Shown here: positions 2,242 through 39,791 of the stretch, one piece after another
Numbering within the stretch: position 1 is the first letter of the stretch
Layout: each line of letters begins with the position of its first letter
Assembly: GCA_009379915.1 (NCBI GenBank)
Contig: WHSV01000021.1
Coordinates: 1-45,575 of the forward strand
Reading direction: 5' to 3'
Source of the DNA: Actinomycetota bacterium
Lineage (GTDB): Bacteria > Actinomycetota > CADDZG01 > WHSQ01
DNA length: 45,575 nucleotides
The notes under the pieces: generated by a model
Seen by the model: the letters and a program-made list of their open reading frames with translations, nothing else
What the model was told of the DNA's origin: nothing
Databases searched by the model: none
Translations under genes and position numbers: made by a program

Positions 2242-2753
2242 CAACGATCACACACGAGACGTTGTCCTCCGCCGAGTGGGCCGCGCGCGCTCCGGTGCTC
2301 CGCGACGAAGGCTGGATTCTTCTCGACCTCCACGGCGTTGATCGGCTCGGGCTCACCGAGGAGGATGAGCGAGGACGGTTCGAGATCGTTTGTCAACTCC
2401 TAAAGCGAGCCGACAAGAGCCGCATGACCGTTCACGTGGCAGCGGAGGGAAACCCACCGGCGATCGCGAGCGTCACGAGAGTCTGGGGCACCGCCGGCTT
2501 CGCCGAGCGAGAGACGTACGACATGTACGGCATCGTGTTCGAGGGACACGATGACCTCTCGCGCATCCTCATGCCGGATGAATGGGAGGGCTATCCCCTT
2601 CGTAAGGACTACGACGTCGGCAAGATCGCCATCGATTTCAAGCCGCAGCCCTTCCTTCAGATCGAAACCCCCGGACAGGCGCCGACCATCGGCGAGTCCG
2701 AGGTCGGGACCGACGAGCTCGGACAGATAAAGCAGGATGACGCCGATGAGTAA
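2238..2753 (+). CDS. nuoC: NADH-quinone oxidoreductase subunit C (first operon)
   Basis: A 171-residue hydrophilic 30-kDa-type subunit that packs against NuoD and NuoB. The family signature appears as [19 protein letters not shown] followed by the [15 protein letters not shown] block near residues 95-128. GTG start at 2238 overlaps the nuoB stop. It is a separate gene rather than the NuoCD fusion of enterobacteria. The 3' end overlaps the nuoD start by a few bases. Confidence 0.95.
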
Positions 2754-4005
2754 GACCGAGAGAACCCTCGAGGAGCACGAGCTCATCCAGCGCATAGAGG
2801 GCGACGGTCAGGGTGCGTTCGTCGAGTCCTACGATGCCGAAGCCGAGGTCATGACGATCAACATGGGGCCGGTGCACCCGGCGACCCACGGAGTGCTCCG
2901 CCTCTTCCTCGAGCTCGACGGTGAGACCGTCATGGATTGCAAGCCCATGATCGGCTATCTCCACACGGGCATGGAGAAGGAGTGCGAGGACCAGAACTGG
3001 CGGGGCGCCGTGACCATCGTCACGCGCATGGATTATCTGGCACCGTTTCACAATGAGCACGCGTATTCGCGCGCGGTCGAGAAGCTGCTGGGCATCGAGG
3101 TTCCGCCGCGCGGCGTGTACATCCGGATGCTCATGTCCGAGCTCAACCGGCTTACCTCCCACCTGGTGCAGTTCGGCACCCAGGGCCTCGACATGGGCGC
3201 CATGTCTGCGATGTTCTACGGATTCCGTGAGCGCGAGATCATCACCGACTTCTTCGAGATGGTCACCGGGCTCCGAATGAACCACGGCTACATCGTTCCC
3301 GGGGGCGTGTGGGAGGACCTGCCCGATGGGTGGCAGGAACAGGTGGCGAACATCCTCGATGTCATGCCGGGACGCCTGAACGAGTACCAGGATCTCTTGA
3401 GCGAGAATCCCATCTTCATCGAGCGCACGCGTGGAGTCGGCACGATCACCGCCGAGGAGTGCGACACCCTCGGTGTGACGGGTCCGATCGCTCGAGCTTC
3501 CGGTATCGACTGGGACCTTCGTCGGGACATGCCGTACGAGGCCTACGACGAGCTCAGCTTCGAAGTGCCGACTCAGGAGCAGGGCGACGTCTACGCGCGC
3601 TATCAGATTCGGATGGCCGAGATGGTGCAGTCCGTCGCTCTCCTCGAACAGATCGTCGACCAGATGCCCGACGGCGACTACAAGAACATGGACCCTAAAC
3701 TGACTCCGCCACCTCGCAGCGAGCTCAATCGCTCGATGGAGGCCGTCATTCACCACTTCAAGCTGGTCACTCAGGGTTACGCGGTCCCCAAAGGCGAGTC
3801 ATACTTCGCGGTCGAATCGCCGCGCGGTGAGCTCGGCGCGTTCGTCGTATCCGACGGAGGGACCTCGCCGTACCGGTGTCATGTCCGCGACCCGAGCTTC
3901 TACAACCTCCAGTCGCTCCCCGTTATGGCGAAGGGCGGTTTGATCGCGGACCTCATCGCCTGCATCGCGTCGCTGGATCCGATCATGGGAGGAGTCGACC
4001 GCTGA
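2746..4005 (+). CDS. nuoD: NADH-quinone oxidoreductase subunit D (first operon)
   Basis: The 49-kDa-type subunit lining the quinone pocket, 419 residues from ATG 2746. I prefer this start over ATG 2737 because a GCAGG element lies at suitable spacing; both are in frame. The quinone-site histidine is in HPATHGVLRL (about H48) and the tyrosine equivalent to Thermus Nqo4 Tyr87 is in TRMDYLAPF (about Y97). The C-terminus ends in DPIMGGVDR as usual. It overlaps the nuoC end and its TGA overlaps the nuoE ATG by one base. Compare NuoD2 at 26758, where that Tyr is Trp. Confidence 0.96.
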   Translation: MSKTERTLEEHELIQRIEGDGQGAFVESYDAEAEVMTINMGPVHPATHGVLRLFLELDGETVMDCKPMIGYLHTGMEKECEDQNWRGAVTIVTRMDYLAPFHNEHAYSRAVEKLLGIEVPPRGVYIRMLMSELNRLTSHLVQFGTQGLDMGAMSAMFYGFREREIITDFFEMVTGLRMNHGYIVPGGVWEDLPDGWQEQVANILDVMPGRLNEYQDLLSENPIFIERTRGVGTITAEECDTLGVTGPIARASGIDWDLRRDMPYEAYDELSFEVPTQEQGDVYARYQIRMAEMVQSVALLEQIVDQMPDGDYKNMDPKLTPPPRSELNRSMEAVIHHFKLVTQGYAVPKGESYFAVESPRGELGAFVVSDGGTSPYRCHVRDPSFYNLQSLPVMAKGGLIADLIACIASLDPIMGGVDR

Positions 4006-8621: not shown

Positions 8622-9893
8622 GTGGGCGCGATCGCGGACTTCCTCGGAGGTCCCGACGTCGTCATCGCGATCGTCAAGGTCGTCGTTGCGTTCGCGGCTC
8701 TTCTCGTGGCGACGCTGTTGACCATTTGGTTCGAGCGGAAGGTCATCGCGGACATGCAAGCGCGCATCGGGCCGAACCGCTGGGGGCCCTTCGGGGTCCT
8801 TCAGACTGTGGCCGACGGTATCAAGCTGTTCTTCAAGGAGGACGTACGGCCGCGCTACGCAGACCGGTGGACCTACGGACTGGCCCCCGTGATGGCCGCG
8901 GTTCCCTCGTTCCTCGCCTTCGCGGTGATCCCGTTCGGCGATCACGTCACCGTCGGGGGCGAGCGGGTCGATTTCATCGTCAGCGACCTGAATATCGGCG
9001 TGCTTTTCTTTCTCGCGGCCGGATCGATCGGCGTCTACGGAGTGGTCCTTGCCGGTTGGGCCTCGGGTTCGAAGTACCCACTGTTGGGCGGAATCCGATC
9101 GAGCGCGCAGCTCATCTCCTACGAGATCGCGCTGGGCCTCTCGCTCGTTCCAATCGTCCTCGTGACGAACAGCCTCTCGACGGTGGACATCGTCGCGGCC
9201 CAGGCCGGCTCGGTCGGAAACGTGGACCTCTTCGACGGGACCTTCCTGCAGGGCGTGTCCGAACTCTTCGAGGTCATACCCAACTGGTATATCTGGTCTC
9301 AGTGGCCCGCGTTCCTGCTGTTCATGATCGCGGGTATCGCCGAGACCAACCGGGCGCCGTTCGACCTGCCGGAGGCCGAGACCGAGCTCATCGCCGGATT
9401 CCACACCGAGTACTCGGGCATTCGGTTTGCACTGTTCTTTCTCGGTGAGTACATCCATGTCGTCGTCATCTCTGCCATGGCGGTGACTCTCTTCTTCGGT
9501 GGCTGGAACGGACCGATCGTGGACGAGTTCCTGCCCTGGATCTGGCCCGTCGGTTGGTTCCTGGTGAAGACGATCGCCTTCGTGTACCTGTTCATCTGGC
9601 TGCGGGCGACGCTGCCCCGGTTGCGCTACGACCGTCTGATGTGGCTCGGTTGGAAGCGGCTCATCCCGGCCTCGCTTCTGTGGATCATGGTCACGGCGGT
9701 GGTCAACGTGAACCCCGAGGGGGTGGACGAGCAGACACTCCGGAGCATCCGTCTGGCCGTCTTCGGAGCGTTGTTCTTGCTCGTGCTGTTCGTCGTCGCG
9801 AAGGGCGACCCCAGACTGAAGCAGGTCGTCACCCCAGAGCGTCCCCGGTCGCGCCGGGCCCAGAAGCAGGGGGTGAAGAGTGGCTCTTCCTGA
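8622..9893 (+). CDS. nuoH: NADH-quinone oxidoreductase subunit H (first operon)
   Basis: The 423-residue membrane subunit that joins the two arms and forms part of the quinone chamber. About eight transmembrane helices are visible. The canonical chamber loop is intact: [16 protein letters not shown] followed by [16 protein letters not shown]. Early motifs [12 protein letters not shown] and [15 protein letters not shown] are also standard. The GTG start abuts the nuoG stop with no gap. The last 35 residues are a basic hydrophilic tail. NuoH2 at 27993 differs in the same loop. Confidence 0.96.
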
Positions 9894-25322: not shown

Positions 25323-25691
25323 GTGCCTGAGGGTTATTTCGGGAGCTACGTGACTATCGGCGTATTCGCCGTAGTCGGGCTCGTGCTCGTATTCGGGACC
25401 CTCGCACTCACCCGCCTGCTGAGGCCCAATGTGCCGACCCGGGCCAAGACCCTCACCTACGAATCCGGCATCGACCCGATCGGTACGGGCTGGGCGCAGG
25501 CGAACGTCCGCTATTACGTCTTCGCACTGCTCTTCGTGATCTTCGACGTCGAGGCGGTCTTCCTCTTCCCGTGGGCGACCGTCTTCGAGGATCTGGGGAC
25601 CCAGGCGTTCGTCGAGATGGTCATCTTCATCGGGGTCCTGGCCCTCGCCCTTCTGTACGCGATCAAGAAAAGGGTGCTCGAGTGGCTGTAA
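25323..25691 (+). CDS. nuoA2: Complex I-like subunit A (second operon)
   Basis: A 122-residue NuoA/ND3 paralogue with three transmembrane segments, [13 protein letters not shown] and [15 protein letters not shown]. It opens the second, 11-gene operon with GTG 25323. There is only a weak ribosome site (GACGGG). The loop after YESGI is different from the first NuoA ([15 protein letters not shown] against [14 protein letters not shown]). The end overlaps the nuoB2 start by 10 bp. Confidence 0.95.
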
Positions 25692-26212
25692 TCGAAAAGG
25701 TCAAGCTCCCCAAGCCCGTCTCCTGGGCCCTCAACTGGAGTCGCCAGTACTCGCTCTGGATGCTGCAGTTCGGACTCGCCTGTTGCGCCATCGAGATGGG
25801 TGCGGCGATCGCAACGAAGTTCGACGTCATTCGTTTCGGAGTCATCCCCTTCCCGGCCTCGCCTCGCCAGGCGGACCTAATGGTCGTCGCAGGGACGGTA
25901 ACGGACAAGATGGCGGCACCGATCAGGCGTGTCTACGACCAGATGCCCGAGCCCAAGTACGTGATCTCGATGGGAGCGTGCGCGAATTGCGGGGGCCCCT
26001 ACTGGGACAGCTACTCGGTCACCAAGGGTGTCGACCAGATCGTTCCCGTCGACGTCTACGTCCCCGGTTGCCCGCCCAGGCCCGAGGCACTTCTGCAGGG
26101 GATCATCAGGCTCCAGCAGAAGATCGCAACCGAGGACGTCAGCACGCGGTGGGCCGGGCACGACACCGAGATTCCGCACATCCCCGAGCCGGGTCTGGCC
26201 GGAGGGGTCTAG
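25682..26212 (+). CDS. nuoB2: Complex I-like subunit B (second operon)
   Basis: A 176-residue NuoB paralogue with the N2 cluster ligands: C34 and C35 in [10 protein letters not shown]100 in MGACANCGG and C130 in VPGCPPRPE. The additional Cys103 is absent in the first NuoB. GTG 25682 lies inside the nuoA2 end. A 25-residue tail after [10 protein letters not shown] is specific to this copy. It should be the electron exit to quinone in the second complex. Confidence 0.95.
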
Positions 26213-26757
26213 TGAGGCTGGAGGCAGACGACGCGCTCGACCGCGTCAAGGGGGCATTGGGCGAGCGCGTCACGGACGCGCACCTGAACCACGGGCAGGT
26301 GGACGTGACCGTCGAGCCGGCCAATCTCGTGGAGGTCCTGACCATCCTGCGCGACGACATCGCGCTCGGCTGTCGCTTCTTCACCTTTCTCTCCGCGGTC
26401 GATCGCTCGACGTTCAACTTCGACGACGATAACGAGCAGGGTGGTCTCGAGGTTCTCGTGCATCTCTACAGCCCGGAGAAGATCTGGCACGTGAACCTTC
26501 ACGTCCCCCTCGACTTCGATACTCCGGTCTGCCCCTCGATCACCGGCGTGTTCAAGGGGGCCGAGTGGCACGAGCGCGAGACGGCCGAGATGTTCGGCAT
26601 CCACTTCACCGATCACCCGAACCTCGTGACCCTCTACCTCTCGGAGGACTTCGAGGGTCACCCGATGCTCAAGTCCTTCAAGCTTCCGGCGCGCAGCTAC
26701 GTCAAGGACTGGCCGGGAGCGAAGGACCCGGACGAAGCGGCGGCGGGGGGCCGGTAG
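26212..26757 (+). CDS. nuoC2: Complex I-like subunit C (second operon)
   Basis: A 181-residue 30-kDa-type subunit. The signature is AEWHERETAEMFGIHFTDHP followed by LYLSEDFEGHPMLKSFKLP. GTG 26212 overlaps the nuoB2 stop by one base (TAGTG). It is separate from nuoD2, whose ATG directly follows the stop. It is divergent from the first NuoC in both ends, consistent with an old duplication or separate acquisition. Confidence 0.94.
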   Translation: MRLEADDALDRVKGALGERVTDAHLNHGQVDVTVEPANLVEVLTILRDDIALGCRFFTFLSAVDRSTFNFDDDNEQGGLEVLVHLYSPEKIWHVNLHVPLDFDTPVCPSITGVFKGAEWHERETAEMFGIHFTDHPNLVTLYLSEDFEGHPMLKSFKLPARSYVKDWPGAKDPDEAAAGGR

Positions 26758-27996
26758 ATGGGGGCCATCCGCGGGGCGGGCTCGGCCGGACCGCCAGAGA
26801 CACGCGGGGCGGGCTCGGCCGGACCGCAGAGAGTAATGGATCCCGAGCTCCAGAACCTCCAGGACTCGAGCGCGTTCGCCTCCGAGGTGTCGGAGGGCAG
26901 GCTCGTGACCGAGGAGATGCTACTCAACGTAGGGCCCCAGCACCCCGCGACCCACGGAGTCTTCCGGTTGCTTGCGACCATCGACGGCGAGCGCATCGTG
27001 CGGGCCGAGCCGGTCGTCGGCTACATGCATCGTGGCTACGAGAAGCTCGTCGAGCAGCGCGATTACCGGCAGATCACGAACCTCATCAGTCGCATGGACT
27101 GGCTCTCGGGGATCAACAACGAACTACCTCTGGCCCTCGCGCTCGAGGAGCTCATGGAGATCGAGGTGCCGCCGCGCGCCCAGTATCTCCGAGTCGCTCT
27201 TGCGGAGATGAACCGCATCCTCAACCACCTGATGTTCTTCCAGTCGTTCTCCGCGGAGCTCGGAGCCATCACCCCCACCTTCTATGCGTTCAGGGAGCGC
27301 GAGGACATCCAGTACGCGATGGAGTCTGTTACCGGCGGACGCATGCATTTCGGCTACTTCCGGCCCGGCGGATTGAAGGAGGACGTGCCCAAGGGATTCA
27401 TCGCGATGGCCCTCGCCGCGGTTCGCAAGGTCATCCAGCGGCTTCCCGACTACGAGGACCTGCTGACGGGAAACGAGATCTTCAAGCAGCGAACCATCAA
27501 CGTCGGAGTGCTCGACAAGGAGGTCGCGTACTCGTACGGAGTCTCCGGGCCCATCGGCCGGGGGTCGTCGATCGACATGGATGTGCGCCGGGACGAGCCC
27601 TATCTCGTGTACGACCAATTCGATTTCGAGGTTTGCAATGGGACTCACGGCGACTGCTTCGACCGCTTCTGGGTATTGCTTCACGAGGTCGTCGAGTCGG
27701 CCAAGATCGTCGAGCAGGCTCTCGCCGGACTGCCTCCCGGTCCGATCATGGGCAAGGTTCCGCGCGTCGTCGAGGCGCCGAAGGGTGAGGTCTACGTTCG
27801 CACCGAGAACCCTCTGGGTGAGCTCGGCTTCTACCTCGTCTCCGATGGTGGCCGGAGGCCGTACCGGATCAAGATTCGAACCCCATCCTTCTCGAACGTG
27901 TCGGCGTTGCCCCACGCCCTCCAGAACACGCTCGTTGCGGACATGATCGCGATCCTCGGCTCCTTCTTCTTCGTGCTGGGGGACGTCGACCGTTGA
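26758..27996 (+). CDS. nuoD2: Complex I-like subunit D (second operon)
   Basis: A 412-residue 49-kDa-type subunit from ATG 26758, which abuts the nuoC2 stop; an in-frame ATG at 26836 would remove a 26-residue leader made mostly of two RGAGSAGP repeats. The core begins TEEMLLNVGPQHPATHGVF with the conserved His66. At the position of the quinone-site Tyr (Thermus Nqo4 Tyr87) it has Trp115 in SRMDWLSGI, while NuoD1 keeps Tyr. The end FVLGDVDR is canonical and overlaps the TTG of nuoH2. The substitution may alter quinone binding. Confidence 0.94.
   Translation: MGAIRGAGSAGPPETRGAGSAGPQRVMDPELQNLQDSSAFASEVSEGRLVTEEMLLNVGPQHPATHGVFRLLATIDGERIVRAEPVVGYMHRGYEKLVEQRDYRQITNLISRMDWLSGINNELPLALALEELMEIEVPPRAQYLRVALAEMNRILNHLMFFQSFSAELGAITPTFYAFREREDIQYAMESVTGGRMHFGYFRPGGLKEDVPKGFIAMALAAVRKVIQRLPDYEDLLTGNEIFKQRTINVGVLDKEVAYSYGVSGPIGRGSSIDMDVRRDEPYLVYDQFDFEVCNGTHGDCFDRFWVLLHEVVESAKIVEQALAGLPPGPIMGKVPRVVEAPKGEVYVRTENPLGELGFYLVSDGGRRPYRIKIRTPSFSNVSALPHALQNTLVADMIAILGSFFFVLGDVDR
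26770..26794 (+). repeat. 25-bp repeat, copy 1 (nuoC2/nuoD2 junction)
   Basis: A 25-bp GC-rich sequence starting CGCGGGGCGGGCTCGG and ending CCGGACCGC, identical to copies at 26803 and 30379. The interior GGCTCGGCCGGACC is a near-palindrome. Read in the nuoD2 frame it encodes RGAGSAGP. Confidence 0.9.
26803..26827 (+). repeat. 25-bp repeat, copy 2 (nuoC2/nuoD2 junction)
   Basis: Identical to copy 1, 33 bp downstream and in the same reading frame (RGAGSAGP). It lies just before the alternative nuoD2 start at 26836. Flanks A on the left and AG on the right are shared with copy 3, making those two identical over 28 bp. Confidence 0.9.
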
Positions 27997-28997
27997 TCGA
28001 AATCACTCTGACGGACTGGCAGATCCTCTTGGTCAAGCTTCTGATCATCCTGATCGTCGTGCCCGTCGGAGCGCTGGTCGGTGGCTATGTCCTGCACAAA
28101 GAGATGGCCCACATGCAGCACCGTCTCGGCCCGATGTACGCCGGTGGATGGCACGGCTGGGCGCAGACTCTCGCCGACGGAATCAAGTTCGCCTACAAGG
28201 AAGACATCATTCCGGCGAGCGCGGACAAGCGTGTGTTCTCGCTTGCTCCGGCCGTCATCTTCGTCCCGGTTCTCCTGCTCTATCTGGTGATCCCGATCGA
28301 TCAAAATCTCATCGTCGAGGACCTCGACGTCGGTCTGTTCTTCCTGCTGGCGATCGGCTCGGTGGGCTCGATCGGCGTGCTCATGGCCGGGTGGTCCAGT
28401 GCAAACAAGTACGCGTTGATCGGAGCGTTGCGCTCCGCCGGACAGCTCATCGCCTACGAGCTGCCGATCGTGCTCAGCGCCGCCGCCATTGCCATGCTCG
28501 CCGGAACGCTTTCGCTGGTCGGCATCGTCGAGGCCCAGGATTGGCCCTACATTGTGTGGCCGCCGGGAATCGGCCTCGCGCTGTTCCTCTTGTTCCTGGC
28601 GGGGGCGATGGCGGAGATGGCGCTCCCGCCGTTCGACATGCCCGTGGCCGAGTCCGAGCTCATCACCGGGCCCTTCACCGAGTACACCGGCATGCGCTTC
28701 ATCTTCGGGTTCTTCTTCGCCGAGACGGCGCACATGATCGCGTTCGCGGCGATCGGCACGACGCTGTTCCTCGGCGGGTACAAACCGATCGTTCCATGGG
28801 AGCCGCTCGAGGTAATCCCCGGCGTGCTGTGGTTCTTCGTCAAGACCTCGTTCATGGTCTTTCTGTTGTTGTGGGTCCGGTTCTCGTTCCCGCGCCTGCG
28901 CGAAGACCAGCTCCAGAAGTTCGCGTGGAAGGCCCTCATTCCACTGTCCCTCGTGCTGATCCTGGCGACCGGCGCGTGGATTCTCTACGGCCCGTGA
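27993..28997 (+). CDS. nuoH2: Complex I-like subunit H (second operon)
   Basis: A 334-residue quinone-chamber membrane subunit from TTG 27993 (TTGA overlap). About eight helices. The loop that reads [13 protein letters not shown] in NuoH1 is [13 protein letters not shown] here, so Asn-Arg is Ala-Leu (210-211) and the first Glu of PEAE is Val218; Glu220 and TEYTGMRF remain. Near the N-terminus [18 protein letters not shown] replaces the usual RIGPNxxGP form. It directly follows nuoD2: nuoE, F and G are absent from between them. Confidence 0.94.
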
Positions 28998-29010
28998 TGC
29001 GAGGAATCGA

Positions 29011-30438
29011 ATGGCTTTAGACGTCGACCAGAGACTCGAGAGGGCGCGCAGACCCGGCTTCGGGATCGGGTTGCTCAAGGGAATGCGCGTGTTGCTCAAG
29101 CACCTCTTCAAGCGCAACTCCGTCATCCAATACCCCGACGTCAAGCAGGATCTCTCTCCGCGTACGCGCGGCGTGATCGCTCTCAAAGAAGAGAACTGCA
29201 CCGTGTGCATGCTCTGCGCGCGCGAGTGTCCCGACTGGTGTATCTACATCGATTCGCACAAGGAGACGTTGCCTCCGAAGCGCGAGGGCGGGCGTCCGCG
29301 CAAGCGCAACGTGCTGGATCGCTTCGCCATCGATTATGCGCTGTGCATGTACTGCGGGATCTGCGTCGAGGTCTGCCCTTACGACGCCCTGTTCTGGAGC
29401 CGTGAGTTCGAGTACGCCGAGTACGACATCCGGCAGCTGACCCACGAGAAGGAGAAGCTGTCGGACTGGATGGCGACGGTCCTGCCTCCGACCGAGCTCG
29501 AGGAGGGCGCCGACATCCCGGGTCAGCCGAGCAAGGCCGCTCCCGCGGCGGCCGCTGCGACCCAGACCGCGACTCCGACGGCCGCGGCCACGGCCGCCAC
29601 CCCGGCGAGCGTCACCTCGTCCGCGACCGAAGCCCGTCCCGGGCAGGCACAGACCGCACCCAGGGAGGGAACGGCCGCCACGGAGGCCGCTCGCCCCGCC
29701 GCCAGTGCGCCGGATGCGGCGACGACCCCGGCCCCCGAAACCGCGAAGCCGGCTCCCGGACTTGCCGAGGAGGTCAAGGACCAGCAGATGGACTCGACTG
29801 CCGAGGCTCGGGCCGAACCCGAGGTGAAACGGGACGCGGGGGGAGCCGTCGAAGCGGAGGGGAGCCAGGCCGAGGTAGAGGACAAAGCCGAGGCCGAAAC
29901 GCCCAGCACACCGGAGTCGACGGCCGTGACCCAGACTCCGCCGCCGGCCGCGGCCGCTCCCTCTCGCCCGGCCCCCCGAATCGAGGACCTCGAACAGCCC
30001 GAGGACGCGTACGCGCGTGTGCTCGATGAGCAATCAAAGGCGGGTTCATCTCCGCAGGTCGCCGAGGCGCGCGCCAAGGTCGCGCGCGTGAAAGCCGAAC
30101 GAGCGATGACGCAGGCGAGAGCCGCCGCTCCGCAAGAGGTCGCTCCGACACCCGAACCCTCGGGGGCGCCGGGGGCTGCCGAGCCCGAGCCCGAACAGGG
30201 CCCGGTTGCCCCCACGCCGGAGGAGAAGCCGGATTCCTCCGCCCCTCAGGCAGAGGCGTCGTCCCCCGGGGAAGATCCGGAAGCGGTCTTCGAGCGAGTG
30301 CTCGAGGAGGAGCGCGCCAAGGGATCGAGTGACGCGGTCGCGACGGCGCGCGCCAAAGCCGCTCGTATGCGAGCGGGACGCGGGGCGGGCTCGGCCGGAC
30401 CGCAGGAACAAGAAGGCACGAAGGGACCGAACGACTGA
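29011..30438 (+). CDS. nuoI2: Complex I-like subunit I with a long C-terminal extension (second operon)
   Basis: A 475-residue protein, nearly three times normal NuoI length. Residues 1-165 are NuoI: C63, C66, C69, C73 and C112, C115, C118, C122 bind two [4Fe-4S] clusters, with an extra Cys77. Residues 170-475 are rich in Ala, Pro, Glu and Thr and look disordered, except for two related charged modules at about 330-364 and 421-457, each of the form RVLxEExxxGSSxxVAxARAK. Near the end a 25-bp repeat encodes [11 protein letters not shown] 29011 has GAGGA upstream. The tail is cytoplasmic by topology; binding a soluble electron donor is an attractive but unproven role. Confidence 0.93.
30379..30403 (+). 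repeat. 25-bp repeat, copy 3 (end of nuoI2)
   Basis: Identical to the copies at 26770 and 26803, 3.6 kb downstream. It is in frame in nuoI2 (residues 457-464, RGAGSAGP), 35 bp before the nuoJ2 start, so again close to a gene junction. Confidence 0.9.
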
Positions 30439-30956
30439 TGGCCGATACCTATCTGCAGGTCATCTTCTGGGCCTTCTTCGCGTTGATGGCGATCGCCGGA
30501 ATTCGAGTTGTCACAACTCGCAACGTCATCCACGCAGCCCTCTATCTGGTCGCAACGCTCCTCGGCGCAGCGTCGATGTACGTTCTGCTCTACGCCGAGT
30601 TCGTCGCTTGGGTTCAGGTTCTCGTCTACGTGGGCGCGGTGGTCGTCCTGATGCTGTTCGGGCTCATGCTCACGAGAGCTCCCATCGGCAGCGCGAACTT
30701 CGACAACAACCAGCGTCTGGTCGGGGCCGTCTGCGCGGGGCTGCTGTTCGCCGTGACGAGTTTCATCATGGTGGGGGCGTTCGAGGGTCAGGAGATCGAC
30801 TTCACCGGCACCGAGGGGACGAAGGTTCAGAGCATCGGGGAGGCGATTTTCTCGATCTACGTGCTCCCCTTCGAGATCGTCTCGGTGTTGCTCCTCGCAG
30901 CGCTGGTCGGCGCGGTAGTGATATCCCGCAGAGATGAAGGGCGGGTGGATAGCTGA
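30438..30956 (+). CDS. nuoJ2: Complex I-like subunit J (second operon)
   Basis: A 172-residue ND6-type subunit with five predicted helices. Helix 3 reads [21 protein letters not shown], the family hallmark. ATG 30438 shares a base with the nuoI2 stop (TGATG), and its stop shares one with nuoK2 ATG. The loop between helices 4 and 5 contains [16 protein letters not shown]. Confidence 0.94.
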
Positions 30957-31261
30957 TGCCGGTGGCCTACTTCCTCGTGTTGTCTGCTCTCCTCTTCAGC
31001 ATCGGCGTCTACGGAGTACTCGCCCGCCAGCATGCCGTTTTGGTGCTGCTAAGCGTCGAGCTGATGCTGAACGCGGCGAACATCAACCTGGTCGCCTTCT
31101 CTGCGATGCTCGGCGAGGCCGGCGTTCCGGGACAGGTCTTTGCGCTGTTCGTGATCGCGGTCGCCGCCGCCGAAGTCGGCGTCGGGCTCGCGATCGTGAT
31201 CTTGATCTATCGGAACCGTCGGAGCGTGGATATCGATGAGATGTCATTGATGAAGTGGTAG
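30956..31261 (+). CDS. nuoK2: Complex I-like subunit K (second operon)
   Basis: A 101-residue ND4L-type three-helix subunit. Glu residues are in [14 protein letters not shown] and [15 protein letters not shown] 30956 overlaps the nuoJ2 stop. The C-terminus is LMKW like NuoK1, but the spacer to nuoL2 is 48 bp rather than 4 bp and holds a hairpin and an 8-bp direct repeat. Confidence 0.95.
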
Positions 31262-31274
31262 CAAGCACCTTGCT
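31260..31274. other. Hairpin in the nuoK2-nuoL2 spacer
   Basis: AGCAAG (31260-31265) and CTTGCT (31269-31274) form a 6-bp stem with a 3-nt loop, starting inside the nuoK2 stop codon. No T-run follows. It could tune expression of nuoL2 or mark an insertion (see the flanking repeat GAAGTGGT at 31252 and 31296). Confidence 0.4.
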
Positions 31275-31309
31275 CGAACATCGAGGCGAAGTGAAGAAGT
31301 GGTGATTGC

Positions 31310-33331
31310 TTGAACGCGCTGATGCTTGCAGCCGAGCAGATAGAGGGAGTCGAGGCCACCCGCACGGGTCTGTTCCCGGACCTCATGTGGCTCGTGCCTC
31401 TGCTGCCGGCGCTGTCCTTCCTCGTGATCCTCTTCTTCGGCAAGAGGTTTCCCGACAAAGGCCACGGTGTCGGGATCCTCGCCATCGGGATTGCCTTCTT
31501 CCTCTCGCTCGCGGGCTTCATCGACCTCATAACGGGGGCCGAGACGGTCGAGAAACACTGGGTCTGGTTCGAGCTCGAGACGCTCGAGTTGACCTTCGGG
31601 ATGAACTACGACTTCCTCACGGGACTGATGTTCGTCGTTGTGACGTTCATCTCGCTGCTGGTGCAGATCTACTCAACCGGTTACATGCTCGACGATGAGC
31701 GTTACACCTGGTTCTACGCGGCGCTGTCGTTGTTCACCGCCTCGATGCTGCTTCTCGTCACGGCCGACAACCTCATCATGATGCTGGTGGGCTGGGAGGG
31801 CGTCGGGCTCTGCTCCTACTTCCTCATCGGCCACTACTGGGAGGAGAAGCCCAACTCGTCGGCCGCAATCAAGGCCTTCATCACGACTCGCGTCGGTGAC
31901 GTCGGATTCATGTTCGGCATCTTCGCCCTGTTCATCCTCGCCGGCACCTTCAACATCACCGAGATCAACCACCTCGCGGAGGAGGGCGAGATCGCCGGAG
32001 CCGGCCTGACCATCGCGGCTCTGCTGTTGTTCTGCGGGGCGATCGGAAAGTCGGCGCAGTTCCCACTCCACGTCTGGCTCCCGGACGCGATGGCGGGCCC
32101 CACTCCCGTCAGCGCATTGATACACGCAGCCACCATGGTCGTGGCGGGGATCTACCTCGTGGCTCGGTTGTTCCCCGTCTTTGAGTTCGCCAGCGGAGGC
32201 GTCCCCCTCGAGGTGGTTGGAGTGATCGCGGCGATCACGATGCTAATCGCGGCTTTCCTCGCGCTCATTCAGGACGACATCAAGAGAGTGCTCGCGTACT
32301 CGACCATCAGCCAGCTGGCATACATGTTCGCCGGGCTGGCCGTCGGCGTGTTCACGGCCGGCATGTTCCATCTCCTTACCCACGCGGTCTTCAAGGCGCT
32401 GCTGTTCCTCGGAGCGGGATCGGTGATCCACGCAGTTCATTCCAACAACATGAGCGATATGGGCGGACTGCGAAAGTACATGCCGGCCACGTTCAGGACG
32501 TACATCATCGGGTCCCTCGCCCTGGCCGGCATCTTCCCCCTCGCCGGTTTCTTCTCGAAGGACGAGATCATCGGTGGAGCGTTGCGAGCCGGGATCGACG
32601 GGACGCGTGCGACGGCCTGGATCGTTTTCGGATCCGCGCTGATAACCGCATTCATCACCGCGCTCTATTCGGCCCGCATGTGCATCAAGACGTTCTGGGG
32701 CGAGTACCGCGGCCACGGTCATCCTCACGAAAGCCCCGGCTCCATGACGAGTCCTCTGTGGGTGCTGGGAGGCCTCACCTTGGTGGTGGGATTCCTCGGC
32801 TTCCCGGTGATCGGGGTATTCAAGTACTGGATCTTCGCCGAGGGCGAGGTTGCTCACGGATTCGAGCCGCTCTACAACGTCGTGCTCCCCGTAATCACCG
32901 TGGGAGGCGCGCTGATCGCCTTCTTCCTCGCCTACAAGTGGTTCTATCGCAACGAGTGGAGGTTCGACTTCCGCAAGACATCGTTCGGATGGATGTACGG
33001 ATTCGCCGAGCGCAAGTACTACCTCGACGATCTCTACCTCGGCGGCATCGTGAAGCCGATTCAGTATCCTCTCGCCGCCGCGGCGTACTGGGCGAACCAG
33101 CACGTCATCGACGGAATCGTCGACGGCACCGCGCGAGGCACGGTTGGAGCCGCCTCGGGTACATACAGGGCCGACCAGGGTGTCGTCGACTTCGGAGTCA
33201 ACGGCGCGGCCGGCCTCACCAACTTCTCAGGCGGTTTGCTCCGCTACATCCAGTCGGGAAACGTCCAGCGCTATGCGGCCGTCTTGTTCGCCTCCGTAGC
33301 GGTCTTCGTAGCTGTTTTCGCATTCGCCTAG
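31310..33331 (+). CDS. nuoL2: Complex I-like subunit L (second operon)
   Basis: The 673-residue ND5-type pump, from TTG 31310 (ATG 31322 is an in-frame alternative). Glu in MLVGWEGVGLCSYFLIG, Lys in GAIGKSAQFPLHVWLPDAM and QDDIKRVLAYSTISQLAYM are intact, so proton pumping is expected. A His-rich loop GHGHPHESPG lies near residues 465-475. The C-terminal region includes FAERKYYLDDLYLGG, typical of NuoL. Confidence 0.95.
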   Translation: MNALMLAAEQIEGVEATRTGLFPDLMWLVPLLPALSFLVILFFGKRFPDKGHGVGILAIGIAFFLSLAGFIDLITGAETVEKHWVWFELETLELTFGMNYDFLTGLMFVVVTFISLLVQIYSTGYMLDDERYTWFYAALSLFTASMLLLVTADNLIMMLVGWEGVGLCSYFLIGHYWEEKPNSSAAIKAFITTRVGDVGFMFGIFALFILAGTFNITEINHLAEEGEIAGAGLTIAALLLFCGAIGKSAQFPLHVWLPDAMAGPTPVSALIHAATMVVAGIYLVARLFPVFEFASGGVPLEVVGVIAAITMLIAAFLALIQDDIKRVLAYSTISQLAYMFAGLAVGVFTAGMFHLLTHAVFKALLFLGAGSVIHAVHSNNMSDMGGLRKYMPATFRTYIIGSLALAGIFPLAGFFSKDEIIGGALRAGIDGTRATAWIVFGSALITAFITALYSARMCIKTFWGEYRGHGHPHESPGSMTSPLWVLGGLTLVVGFLGFPVIGVFKYWIFAEGEVAHGFEPLYNVVLPVITVGGALIAFFLAYKWFYRNEWRFDFRKTSFGWMYGFAERKYYLDDLYLGGIVKPIQYPLAAAAYWANQHVIDGIVDGTARGTVGAASGTYRADQGVVDFGVNGAAGLTNFSGGLLRYIQSGNVQRYAAVLFASVAVFVAVFAFA

Positions 33332-33347
33332 AAAGGGGTTCGAGAGA

Positions 33348-34868
33348 ATGTCATGGGTTGACGACTGGGGGCTGAGCCTCGCGACGTTCCTGCCCGCACT
33401 GGGTGTGGTCATCCTGATGTTCCTTCCCAACCGGGAATCCCTCGTCAAGATCACGGGGACGGCCTTCGCCGGCCTTGCGCTGATCGCCGGCATCCTGTGT
33501 GCGGTCCGTTTCGATTACTCGAGGGGCGATCAGATACAGCTCGAGGTCGACTCCACGTGGATCGAAACAATCGGCGCTCGTTACCACGTGGGGGCAGACG
33601 GCATGTCGCTGCCCCTGCTTCTGTTGAGCGTCCTCGTGTGTTTCCTCTGCATGGTCTACATGTGGTGGCACATTCCCGAGCCGGGTAAGCCGAAGGCGTT
33701 CTTTGCCCTCGTTCTCCTGCTCGAGACCGGAATGAACGGCACTTTCGTCGCACTCGACCTCATTCTGTTCTTCATCTTCTTCGAGCTCGTGCTCGTGCCG
33801 ATGTATTTCATGATCGGAATCTGGGGCGGTCCCGACCGCGACTACGCGAGCGTCAAGTTCTTCCTCTACACGTTGTTCGGTTCGATCTTCATGCTGCTTG
33901 GTTTCCTTGCGCTGTGGATCCACTCGGGGGCCGAGACCTTCGACATCATCGCCCTGCGTGAGAGCACCGCGGGAGCGAGCGAGCTGTTCCAGAACCTCGT
34001 GTTCCTCGGCCTGTTCCTCGGTTTCGCGATCAAAGTGCCGATGTGGCCGTTCCACACCTGGTTGCCCGACGCTCATACCGAGGCTCCGACCGTGGGCTCG
34101 GTGCTCCTGGCCGCAGTGCTCCTGAAGATGGGGACCTACGGCTTCATTCGAATCGCGCTGCCGATCCTCCCCGACGCTGCAGTGACTTTCGCGCCGGTCA
34201 TCGGCATCCTTGCCGTGATCGGCATCATCTGGGGTTCGCTGTGCTGCTTCGCGCAGACCGACCTCAAACGTCTCATCGCCTTCTCGTCGGTCGGCCACAT
34301 GGGCTTCGTGATGCTCGGCATCGCGACGCTCACCGATACCGGGATCAACGGAGCCATCTTCGGGATGGTGGCCCACGGCCTCATCACCGGGATGCTCTTC
34401 TTCCTCGCCGGATCGATACACGAGCGCTACCACACGCGCGAGATCGCCGCCCTCGGGGGAGTGCTCAAGCAGATTCCGCGCTTCGGGTCGGTCTTCTCGT
34501 TCGCGGCGATTGCATCGCTGGGCCTTCCGGGGCTGGCCGGGTTCTGGGGCGAGATGCTGGCTCTGCTCGGCGCCTACCAACCGGCTCCGGGACTCAACGT
34601 CGAGCTGTTCCGTGTCCTCATGGTCATCGGCGGTATCGGAACCGTTCTCACGGCCGGGTACCTTCTGTGGACGGTTCAGCGAGTAAATCTCGGCACCGTG
34701 CCCGACAAGTTCGCGTCCGGTAAGGGGATCTTCGACGTCGAGCGACTCGAGTGGACCGCCTGGGTTCCTCTTCTTCTCCTCATCGTCGTGGCCGGTTTCT
34801 ATCCCGCCCTGCTGACCAACGTGACGGCCGACGCCGTCGGCGGTCTGGCGGGGATTTTCGGAGCGTAG
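33348..34868 (+). CDS. nuoM2: Complex I-like subunit M (second operon)
   Basis: A 506-residue ND4-type pump. Glu in FIFFELVLVPMYFMIG and Lys in LGFAIKVPMWPFHTWLPDAH are conserved, as is QTDLKRLIAFSSVGHMGF. ATG 33348 has GAAAGGGG about 10 bp upstream. The stop directly abuts the nuoN2 GTG. Confidence 0.96.
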   Translation: MSWVDDWGLSLATFLPALGVVILMFLPNRESLVKITGTAFAGLALIAGILCAVRFDYSRGDQIQLEVDSTWIETIGARYHVGADGMSLPLLLLSVLVCFLCMVYMWWHIPEPGKPKAFFALVLLLETGMNGTFVALDLILFFIFFELVLVPMYFMIGIWGGPDRDYASVKFFLYTLFGSIFMLLGFLALWIHSGAETFDIIALRESTAGASELFQNLVFLGLFLGFAIKVPMWPFHTWLPDAHTEAPTVGSVLLAAVLLKMGTYGFIRIALPILPDAAVTFAPVIGILAVIGIIWGSLCCFAQTDLKRLIAFSSVGHMGFVMLGIATLTDTGINGAIFGMVAHGLITGMLFFLAGSIHERYHTREIAALGGVLKQIPRFGSVFSFAAIASLGLPGLAGFWGEMLALLGAYQPAPGLNVELFRVLMVIGGIGTVLTAGYLLWTVQRVNLGTVPDKFASGKGIFDVERLEWTAWVPLLLLIVVAGFYPALLTNVTADAVGGLAGIFGA

Positions 34869-36338
34869 GTGAACCCTCTTCTCGCCCAGTCCGTGACCCA
34901 GCCGAGCGTCGATTGGCACGCGCTCGCCCCCGAGCTCGTCATGGCGGGCACGGCCTGTCTCGTGCTGGTCGCGGATCTGTTCCTACCGCGGAACGCGAAG
35001 TGGATTGCGATGCCGCTGTCGGCGGCCGGGATCATCGGCACGCTCGCTGCGGTCGTGTCGCTGATCAATACCGAGACGACGACTCTGGCGGGAACTTTCG
35101 AGGTCGACGCCTTCTCGCTGCTGTTCAAGGGTTTGTTTTGCGTCCTCGGCTTGATCATCCTCGCAATCAGCTTCCATTACTTCCGGGCGGGTTCGTATTA
35201 CCAGGGCGAGTACTATTTCTTGCTGCTGTGCTCGCTCTTCGGAGGATTGGTTATTGCGAGCGCGCGCGATCTGATCTCGTTGTTCATCGCACTCGAGCTC
35301 ATCAGCATCCCCGGCATCGTCATGGTCGCCCTCAGGAAGGGGGACGCCAGAGCGAATGAGGGCGCGCTGAAGTTCTTCCTGTTCAGTGTGCTGTCCTCGG
35401 CCGTGATGCTCTACGGCATGTCGCTCGTCTACGGAGTGACCGGCTCGACGATTCTCTCCGAGATCCGCACGTCGATCGGGTCGGGCGACGAGCCCCTCGT
35501 CGTGCTGAGTGTGTTCTTCGTCGTGGTCGGGTTCGCCTTCAAGATCTCGGCGGTCCCGTTTCACTTCTGGGCCCCCGACACGTACGAGGGTGCACCGTCG
35601 CCGGTCGCAGCCTTTCTGTCGACCGCCTCCAAGATCGGGGGCTTCGTCGGGTTGCTCGTGCTCATGTTCAAGGCGTTCCCCGAGGTCGCCGACACATGGG
35701 CCCCCGTATTCGCCGTTCTCGCCGCTTTGACGATGACGGTCGGAAACCTGATCGCGCTGAGACAGCAGCACGTCATCCGACTTCTCGCTTACTCGGGGAT
35801 CGCGCAGTCGGGGTACATCCTCGTGTGCCTGGCGCTGATCAACCCCGGGAACCCGGACGCGAACGAGCAGGCTTTCGCTGCGGCCGTCATCTACCTGGCC
35901 ATCTACGGAATCATGGATCTCGGTGCCTTCGCTGCCGCGGTCGCGTTCGCCCGGCGAGGCGGCACCTACTTCATCAGCGACTACGCGGGTCTGTGGCAAC
36001 GGAGCCCGGTCCTAGCTCTTCTCTTCGGCGGTTTTCTCATCTCGCTTGCCGGCGCGCCGCCGATGGCCGGCCTCATCGCAAAGCTGTTTGTCTTCGCCGC
36101 GACCATCGAAGCTGAGGTTTACTGGCTGGCGATCGTCATGGGCGTCAACACCGTGATCGCCGCGTGGTACTACCTGGCGCTCATCAAGAAGATGTTCTTC
36201 GAGACCCCCGAGTTGGACGAACCAGTCGAGGTGCCGTACCTGCTGTCGGCCGCCATGGGCATAGCGGCCGCGTTGCTGGTGGCGCTGCTCGTGTACCCGC
36301 CGCTGCTGACGAACCTGGCGGACCGCTCGATCTTCTGA
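34869..36338 (+). CDS. nuoN2: Complex I-like subunit N (second operon)
   Basis: A 489-residue ND2-type pump and last gene of the operon, GTG 34869. Glu in LFIALELISIPGIVMV and Lys in VGFAFKISAVPFHFWAPD are present. The cytoplasmic motif normally DLKRLLAYS reads QQHVIRLLAYSGIAQSGY, so the usual Lys is Ile; NuoN1, NuoM1 and NuoM2 all keep DLKR. The functional effect is not known. Confidence 0.94.
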   Translation: MNPLLAQSVTQPSVDWHALAPELVMAGTACLVLVADLFLPRNAKWIAMPLSAAGIIGTLAAVVSLINTETTTLAGTFEVDAFSLLFKGLFCVLGLIILAISFHYFRAGSYYQGEYYFLLLCSLFGGLVIASARDLISLFIALELISIPGIVMVALRKGDARANEGALKFFLFSVLSSAVMLYGMSLVYGVTGSTILSEIRTSIGSGDEPLVVLSVFFVVVGFAFKISAVPFHFWAPDTYEGAPSPVAAFLSTASKIGGFVGLLVLMFKAFPEVADTWAPVFAVLAALTMTVGNLIALRQQHVIRLLAYSGIAQSGYILVCLALINPGNPDANEQAFAAAVIYLAIYGIMDLGAFAAAVAFARRGGTYFISDYAGLWQRSPVLALLFGGFLISLAGAPPMAGLIAKLFVFAATIEAEVYWLAIVMGVNTVIAAWYYLALIKKMFFETPELDEPVEVPYLLSAAMGIAAALLVALLVYPPLLTNLADRSIF

Positions 36339-39673: not shown

Positions 39674-39755
39674 GGCGGGATGCCCGAGTGGCCAAAGGGA
39701 GCGGCCTGTAAAGTCGTCGGCTCAGCCTACGGAGGTTCGAATCCTCCTCCCGCCA
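39674..39755 (+). tRNA. tRNA-Tyr (anticodon GTA)
   Basis: An 82-nt class II tRNA. Acceptor GGCGGGA (39674-39680) pairs with TCCCGCC (39748-39754); the anticodon stem GCGGC/GTCGT (two G-U pairs) holds CTGTAAA with GTA at 39708-39710; the long variable arm is at about 39718-39730; the T-arm is GGAGG TTCGAAT CCTCC. CCA is not encoded. The long arm resembles tRNA-Ser or Leu, but the anticodon is Tyr, which is also long-armed in bacteria. Confidence 0.95.
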
Positions 39756-39791
39756 CAACAGCGAGACCCGGAGGAGTCCCAGGTCTTTCTC

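Follow-up and report, generated by a model that had tools for sequence, protein, structure and literature searches.

The window, the whole stretch of 45,575 nucleotides analysed here, is a contig (G000:C144) of a 3.39 Mb genome of the Actinomycetota and carries two nuo operons for complex I. The question it raises is what kind of enzyme the second operon encodes, given that its NuoH differs from the NuoH of the first in a loop at the quinone chamber. The first operon, nuo1, is complete, includes nuoEFG and occupies about 1.4–16.2 kb of the window, with nuoD1 at 2737-4005 and nuoH1 at 8622-9893, both on the forward strand. The second, nuo2 (25323..36338, forward strand), consists of eleven genes in the order nuoA2 B2 C2 D2 H2 I2 J2 K2 L2 M2 N2 and is without nuoEFG; nuoD2 lies at 26758..27996 and nuoH2, which starts with TTG and encodes 334 residues, at 27993..28997, again on the forward strand. 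The single match to NuoF (PF01512) in the genome falls inside operon 1, and nuoEFG are present in operon 1 only. The gene content of nuo2 is that of an 11-subunit complex I (nuoABCDHIJKLMN in one operon, no nuoEFG); NuoE, NuoF and NuoG, which define the 14-subunit NADH:quinone oxidoreductase, are lacking from it.

The two key subunits could be placed in their families. NuoH2 passes PF00146 (NADHdh) with 2.4e-95 and 319.5 bits (cut-off 27) and aligns with solved ND1/NuoH chains of the PDB. Against the NCBIfam NuoH equivalogs (PRK06076 models), its best score of 294.5 bits stays below the cut-off of 305, while NuoH1 passes NF004741 with 340.8 bits. NuoD2, assigned by family models and a NuoD alignment, passes NCBIfam PRK06075 (427.1 bits, cut-off 360) and stays below TIGR01962 (432.9 bits, cut-off 459.35).

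It was pointed out in the first-pass annotation that an Asn-Arg pair and the first Glu of a PEAE motif are gone from NuoH2. This was confirmed: the stretch 28617-28664 lies in the NuoH2 frame and translates to 16 residues, in which, compared with NuoH1, Asn-Arg has become Ala-Leu and Glu has become Val. The TM5-6 (quinone-chamber) loop comprises residues 210-220 of NuoH2 (28620..28652) and residues 243-253 of NuoH1 (9348..9380), both on the forward strand. Val218 (28644..28646, forward strand) replaces Glu216 of E. coli, which is Glu202 of ND1, and a hydrophobic residue stands at this position in all NuoH2 read. In the best 80 of 293 NuoH2 relatives, picked by similarity to NuoH2 only, position 216 was found to be V in 55, I in 20, L in three, M in one and F in one, with no Glu, and D213 and E220 are kept in all 80. 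The change is neither chance nor the product of a bad frame, since both frames are open, PF00146 and the PDB chains are matched and the position is hydrophobic in 80 of 80 relatives. The missing Asn means little, because E. coli has His there and the residue is thus not fixed in complex I.

The acids of the E. coli loop are D213, E216, E218 and E220. According to the abstract of PMC8209014, D213 is the counterpart of ND1 D199, and by the same offset E216 corresponds to ND1 E202. The part of PMC12529768 that was available places ND1 D199, E202, E204 and E206 in this loop and describes, from simulations, a relay D199-E202-E192. The earlier location of the loop at the quinone chamber and the mouth of the E-channel is therefore borne out by what these sources and an excerpt of PMC9120487 say of D199 (PMC8209014) and E202 (PMC9120487, PMC12529768). 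A single acid of the loop can be dispensed with, as the E. coli NuoH variant D213G, according to PMC8209014, still pumps and has 46% of the decyl-Q activity. An AlphaFold model of NuoH2 gave a pLDDT below 50 for the loop, which is too weak for geometry or distances.

In NuoH proteins of the ordinary type, the loop residues are not free to vary. Glu216 and Arg209 are present in 62 of 62 readable NuoH1-type copies, a count in which E. coli, two EFG-less operons and repeated copies are included. The unbiased counts at position 216 are those of the 80 relatives and of the family searches, two sets that share some genomes; the latter gave Glu216 in all 41 NuoH1 among the best loci listed. Searches of the order and the class gave Glu216 in 17/17 NuoH1, again among the best loci listed, and 18 H2-like sequences, of which 16 have V or I and one (L109) is truncated and unreadable; the last, the distant paralogue L110, has Asp. 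All 24 further top-scoring NuoH from a search of the phylum have both Glu216 and Arg209. A wider survey of the loop motif, centred on a record labelled Acidobacteria, led back to the same phylum and added no new case. The sample outside the phylum comprised five organisms and the PDB alignments; Glu216 is kept in E. coli, Komagataeibacter, Phocaeicola, Sinorhizobium and one haloarchaeon, as well as in the Thermus, mycobacterial, plant and cyanobacterial chains.

The second change concerns NuoD2, where Trp115 (27100..27102, forward strand) replaces the quinone-ligating Tyr (E. coli CD Tyr273/277, Thermus Nqo4 Tyr87); the counterpart in NuoD1 is Tyr100 (3034..3036, forward strand). The Trp aligns with E. 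coli CD Tyr273, which a passage in PMC8138167 names, together with H224, as a ligand of the quinone. All 18 readable D1-like NuoD, that of E. coli among them, have Tyr; the readable D2-like copies number 101, counting duplicates, and 99 of them have Trp. The two without Trp are one gene of genome G216 read twice, which belongs to an EFG-less operon whose adjoining NuoH has Glu216; a further 21 D2-like copies are truncated ahead of the site. Every NuoD read from a nuo2 operon carries the Trp. At some loci, among them those of Streptomyces, Microbispora and Frankiales, the gene lies outside the operon. A loss of nuoD from Streptomyces-type operons was considered and rejected, as the genomes with such operons that were searched carry a second NuoD-like gene at another place. 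Eighteen regions with such an unlinked nuoD2 were fetched from genomes that could be searched whole, and Trp was found in 17 of 17 readable ones, the remaining one being truncated. Among distinct NuoD2 sequences, Y273 has become W in 94/94 and H224 is kept in 94/94; unlinked NuoD2 entered this set only if they matched a Trp-containing pattern, a condition from which the 17/17 count is free. The Trp and the loop change are thus inherited together even where the genes are apart.

In a NuoH tree of 69 rows, the 39 NuoH2, the window included, form one group (SH-aLRT 99, stem 0.83), into which the named Streptomyces NuoH2 also fall. The replacements of Glu216 and of the NuoD Tyr fall on the same clade stem, so that their coordination amounts to one event. 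The expectation that the loop would co-vary with the NuoD2 Trp is accordingly upheld in part: the Trp accompanies the change in every operon in which both are readable, and a single stem allows no statistical test. Contrary to the first description, the change is shared by a clade and not confined to this gene pair. At the DNA level, a pattern encoding PFDxP[hydrophobic]A[DE] was matched in 78 of 246 sampled Actinomycetota genomes (the reversed pattern gave one match). The regions fetched from 42 pattern-positive genomes contained NuoH2 in 40 and no nuo gene in two (G121, G172); subtracting these two and adding G014, which is Nuo2-positive by a fragment, gives 77 of 246 genomes, or about 31%. 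In the order of the window genome, 13 of 16 genomes have an H2-type NuoH, full or as a fragment; the three without one include two assemblies of 68 and 83% completeness. Nuo1 is retained as well by most genomes of this order, and the nuo1 and nuo2 operons adjoin each other at many loci.

Two causes of the loop change could be set aside. Between D and H, nuoEFG are missing from three operons, L216 and L227 from Actinomycetota and L282 from Bacteroidota, all of which keep both the Tyr and Glu216, and the loss of the NADH arm therefore does not explain the change and was rejected as its cause. An adaptation to menaquinone is not favoured, as mycobacterial complex I and Nuo1 of the window genome, both of which we take to work with menaquinone, have the usual residues.

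Further differences emerged from a comparison of 47 type-1 with 127 type-2 NuoH. The two types were partly defined by residue 216 (hydrophobic in type 2, Glu in type 1), so the comparison is informative on other positions only; short and duplicate sequences were dropped, and type 1 excludes L123, L216, L227 and L233. The read-outs behind the 62 NuoH1-type and the 101 D2-like copies, in turn, draw on overlapping loci of the same genomes, some picked by the hydrophobic-216 DNA pattern. In type 2, R37 has become H, L, F or M, R51 is mostly Y, E, D or F, Y294 is E in 124/127 (Glu304 of the window NuoH2; 28902..28904, forward strand) and M298 is Q in 127/127. By analogy with ND1, R37, Y294 and M298 would line the quinone chamber. 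NuoB differs between the types in this manner at 13 positions. The proton-pumping residues present another picture. In 70 type-2 complexes, E71, E157, E228, E241, R148 and R291 of NuoH, E36 and E72 of NuoK and Y59 of NuoJ are kept, as are nearly all key Lys, Glu and His tested in NuoL, M and N; the loop itself keeps Asp213, Glu218 (or Asp) and Glu220, alongside Glu157. NuoA D79 is kept in 60/70 and is Ala in 10/70, and NuoN Lys295 is Val or Ile in 70/70 (Ile in nuoN2 of the window, 34869-36338) versus Lys in 38/38 type-1 sequences. Lys295 is named as part of the E. coli NuoN proton input path in an excerpt of PMC13324432. The Nuo2 pump is thus not wholly unchanged. Judged from the residues, it nevertheless appears largely intact, with the change concentrated near the quinone chamber.

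The Arg of the Asn-Arg pair follows a course of its own. Its loss was at first counted as part of the shared change, which does not hold, given that position 209 is Arg in 56, Gln in 23 and Leu in one of the best 80 of 293 relatives. Leu211 of the window (28623..28625, forward strand), in place of E. coli Arg209, is private to this genome and one sibling (L005/L098), and elsewhere among the NuoH2 read the position is Arg or Gln, and Trp in two. The window NuoH2 also has Leu34-His35 (28092..28097, forward strand) in place of E. coli Glu36-Arg37, a position that, from what is said of ND1 Glu24/Arg25 in PMC9120487, probably lies at the entrance of the quinone tunnel. Among 174 sequences (127 NuoH2, 47 NuoH1), 132 have both Arg209 and Glu36, 42 have neither and none has one without the other. 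The tree requires four changes for each, that is, about four joint losses, one of which is the window lineage. Supported branches provide three independent pairs, all in agreement, a number too small for significance at 0.05 in a sign test. The recurrent co-variation is that of NuoH Arg209 with NuoH Glu36, not with the NuoD Trp. The two residues may form a salt bridge, in which case the window has lost a further charge pair as a unit. Their human counterparts, ND1 R195 and E24, are presumably sites of disease mutations. In the group with Gln209, NuoD position 325 is also Gln in 28 of 31 loci (among 75 loci with a linked NuoD2), and Acidimicrobiia-type loci (e.g., L019, L023) have Gln for Arg209 and Leu for Glu36, mostly together with Gln at NuoD 325. 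Having been lost jointly about four times, Arg209 and Glu36 provide a double mutant of natural origin in which a charge pair can be studied.

In ordinary complex I, a His and a Tyr of NuoD hold and protonate the quinone head, and in current models the proton steps from NuoH Asp213 to Glu216 and on to the next Glu of the E-channel. Taken together, the observations argue for Nuo2 as a working complex I without an NADH module, belonging to one old actinobacterial clade and rebuilt at its quinone end, a reading to which we assign a probability of roughly 60%. Such a complex would still pump protons, and its electron donor would be not NADH but a carrier of low potential, for instance ferredoxin. 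Menaquinone would be reduced with protons that arrive by a different route, perhaps by way of the new Glu294; they could reach it through the His and water, or through a shifted carboxylate. We know of no activity of any Nuo2. A more specific version, in which quinone reduction is coupled to pumping without the NuoD Tyr or the Glu216 relay, with the relocated Glu294 taking part and the ferredoxin of KorAB as one donor, is put forward tentatively.

A different explanation would be that quinone chemistry has been lost, with the membrane arm and the clusters of NuoB and NuoI serving another acceptor or ion transport and the chamber residues free to change. The disappearance of the ligating Tyr, the relay Glu and Arg37, joined in some lineages by that of Glu36, Arg209 and the acid at NuoD 325, would fit. 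However, the replacements are themselves fixed (Trp in all 94 distinct NuoD2, Gln298 in all 127 NuoH2), the quinone-ligating His is kept throughout the 94 NuoD2 and one genus appears to live with Nuo2 only, which makes such a loss unlikely. The genus is represented by three genomes (G017, G018 and G019; 94, 97 and 96% complete), each with one NuoH and one NuoD gene, both of the Nuo2 type. Of 14 genomes searched for NuoF (PF01512), 11 gave a match and these three gave none. No complex I other than Nuo2 was found in the three, and the absence of Nuo1 is strongly indicated rather than proven, since the assemblies are incomplete. Two loci of this type that were checked (L194, L195) hold a complete nuo2 operon after a gene for a FAD-binding protein, with no nuo1 gene upstream.

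Hints as to the electron donor came from the surroundings of the operon. Among 94 nuo2 loci with 3 kb or more of sequence ahead of nuoA2 (some genomes being counted twice), genes for KorA and KorB (2-oxoacid:ferredoxin oxidoreductase) lie divergently near nuoA2 in 16, namely in Microbispora, Frankiaceae (Frankiales), Actinospica, Streptomyces and Actinacidiphila, and are not there in the other 78. KorA above the TIGR03710 cut-off was found in 66/77 Nuo2 genomes versus 57/169 others. The association holds between families (20/23 versus 13/40) and not within them, where shuffling gave a mean of 65.7 against the 66 observed. KorA above the cut-off was not found in the genus with Nuo2 alone, and KorAB therefore cannot be the general donor; in the window genome, KorA lies on another contig (G000:C86). 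PF12367 was also tried as a marker of such enzymes, with 0/77 genomes showing a PF12367 2-oxoacid oxidoreductase together with Nuo2, and was rejected because it misses the KorB that adjoins nuo2. Ferredoxin as the donor of Nuo2 is thus a lead.

The adjacency of KorAB, a ferredoxin enzyme, in one branch and the retention of Nuo1 in most genomes of the order would also suit a Nuo2 that runs mainly backwards, using the proton motive force and menaquinol to reduce ferredoxin, with the Tyr and Glu changes tuning quinol oxidation. This is improbable, as the genomes where no complex I besides Nuo2 was found speak for a forward role as well. Nor do we give much credence to the proposal, made for Streptomyces in the portion of PMC9239103 available, that Nuo2 subunits mix with those of Nuo1 into hybrids and so tune Nuo1. 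The two operons are neighbours at many loci; however, the three genomes without a Nuo1-type NuoH or NuoD and without a NuoF match imply a Nuo2 that must stand alone there, and hybrids are accordingly very unlikely.

The working complex is further supported by its constraint. NuoH2 differs from its orthologues in ten genomes of the family by a dN of 0.166-0.246 and a dS of 0.84-1.22, and NuoH1 from those in fourteen genomes by 0.172-0.265 and 0.92-1.32; by these estimates NuoH2 is as constrained as NuoH1. That a duplicated operon is drifting neutrally or decaying, for which the lineage-specific loss of Arg209 and Glu36 in the window might speak, is very unlikely in the face of this constraint, the eleven open genes in order, the H2-type NuoH in 13/16 genomes of the order and the loop pattern across the phylum. 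The initial preference for divergence over drift has thus held up, with the equal constraint, the mostly kept pump residues and the genus with Nuo2 alone behind it.

Several known systems resemble Nuo2. The 11-subunit complex I of D. hafniense has the same set, ABCDHIJKLMN without EFG, and a donor that is not settled, with ferredoxin among the proposals. NuoH2 forms a separate clade, and the EFG-less control operons from other organisms (L216, L227, L282) keep the Tyr and the Glu, unlike nuo2. The 14-subunit complex I (Nuo1 of the window; mycobacterial 8e9g) shares the fold and most pump residues with Nuo2 and has EFG, the NuoD Tyr, Glu216, Arg209, Glu36 and Arg37, all of which the window Nuo2 lacks. 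The F420H2 dehydrogenase Fpo is also without EFG; NuoH2 scores 226.8 against the FpoH cut-off of 475 and NuoD2 356.8 against the FpoD cut-off of 600, both falling short. The nuo2 cluster of Streptomyces (SCO4599-SCO4608) has a NuoH2 of the same clade and its nuoD2 apart from the operon; an excerpt of PMC8388888 describes the same separation in S. ambofaciens. In the part of PMC9239103 at hand, the function of Streptomyces nuo2 is called unclear and NuoCDEFG and L are said to be lacking, unlike in the Streptomyces loci read here, in which C2- and L2-like genes were found. The available portions of these two papers make no mention of the Tyr and Glu changes. Among titles and the openings of abstracts, no paper was found that reports this Tyr replaced by Trp, or Glu216 replaced, in a naturally occurring complex I, which is a weak negative.

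How quinone reduction drives pumping is an old open question that has mostly been probed with point mutants and simulations. Nuo2 replaces two residues that are modelled as the proton donor to the quinone and the first relay, and thereby offers a natural comparison beside damaged mutants. If Nuo2 pumps, models that require the NuoD Tyr and Glu216 must change; if the path is rerouted as suggested, Nuo2 would reveal what the accepted coupling path can do without.

Some minor observations concern the window and related loci. The NuoI model covers residues 24-150 of the 475 of NuoI2 (29011-30438), the remainder being an Ala/Pro/Glu-rich tail, and a tRNA-Tyr (gta) lies at 39674-39756. In several lineages (L048, L189, L024, L212), a gene for an M48/HtpX-type zinc metalloprotease is located downstream of nuoN2. 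The FAD-binding protein genes ahead of nuo2 in L194 (3845-5203) and L195 (2784-4244) match geranylgeranyl reductase below the cut-off, and the first gene of the window, ahead of nuo1, resembles them by eye. The distant paralogue L110 (G007:C178) is a third NuoH, 35% identical to NuoH2, with NuoJ, K and L as neighbours and the loop AATFSLPLDFPDA. It may represent the same kind of module as two plasmid operons, L288 of Rubrobacter marinus and L287 of Paracoccus aerodenitrificans (p1), in which nuoA is followed by a large gene and nuoH J K L M N. The large gene is described as a 'heavy metal-binding domain' and bears a weak likeness to NuoD. Neither NuoB nor NuoI was matched in these plasmid operons, their NuoH loops are also without Glu216, and that of Rubrobacter adjoins multicopper oxidase genes.
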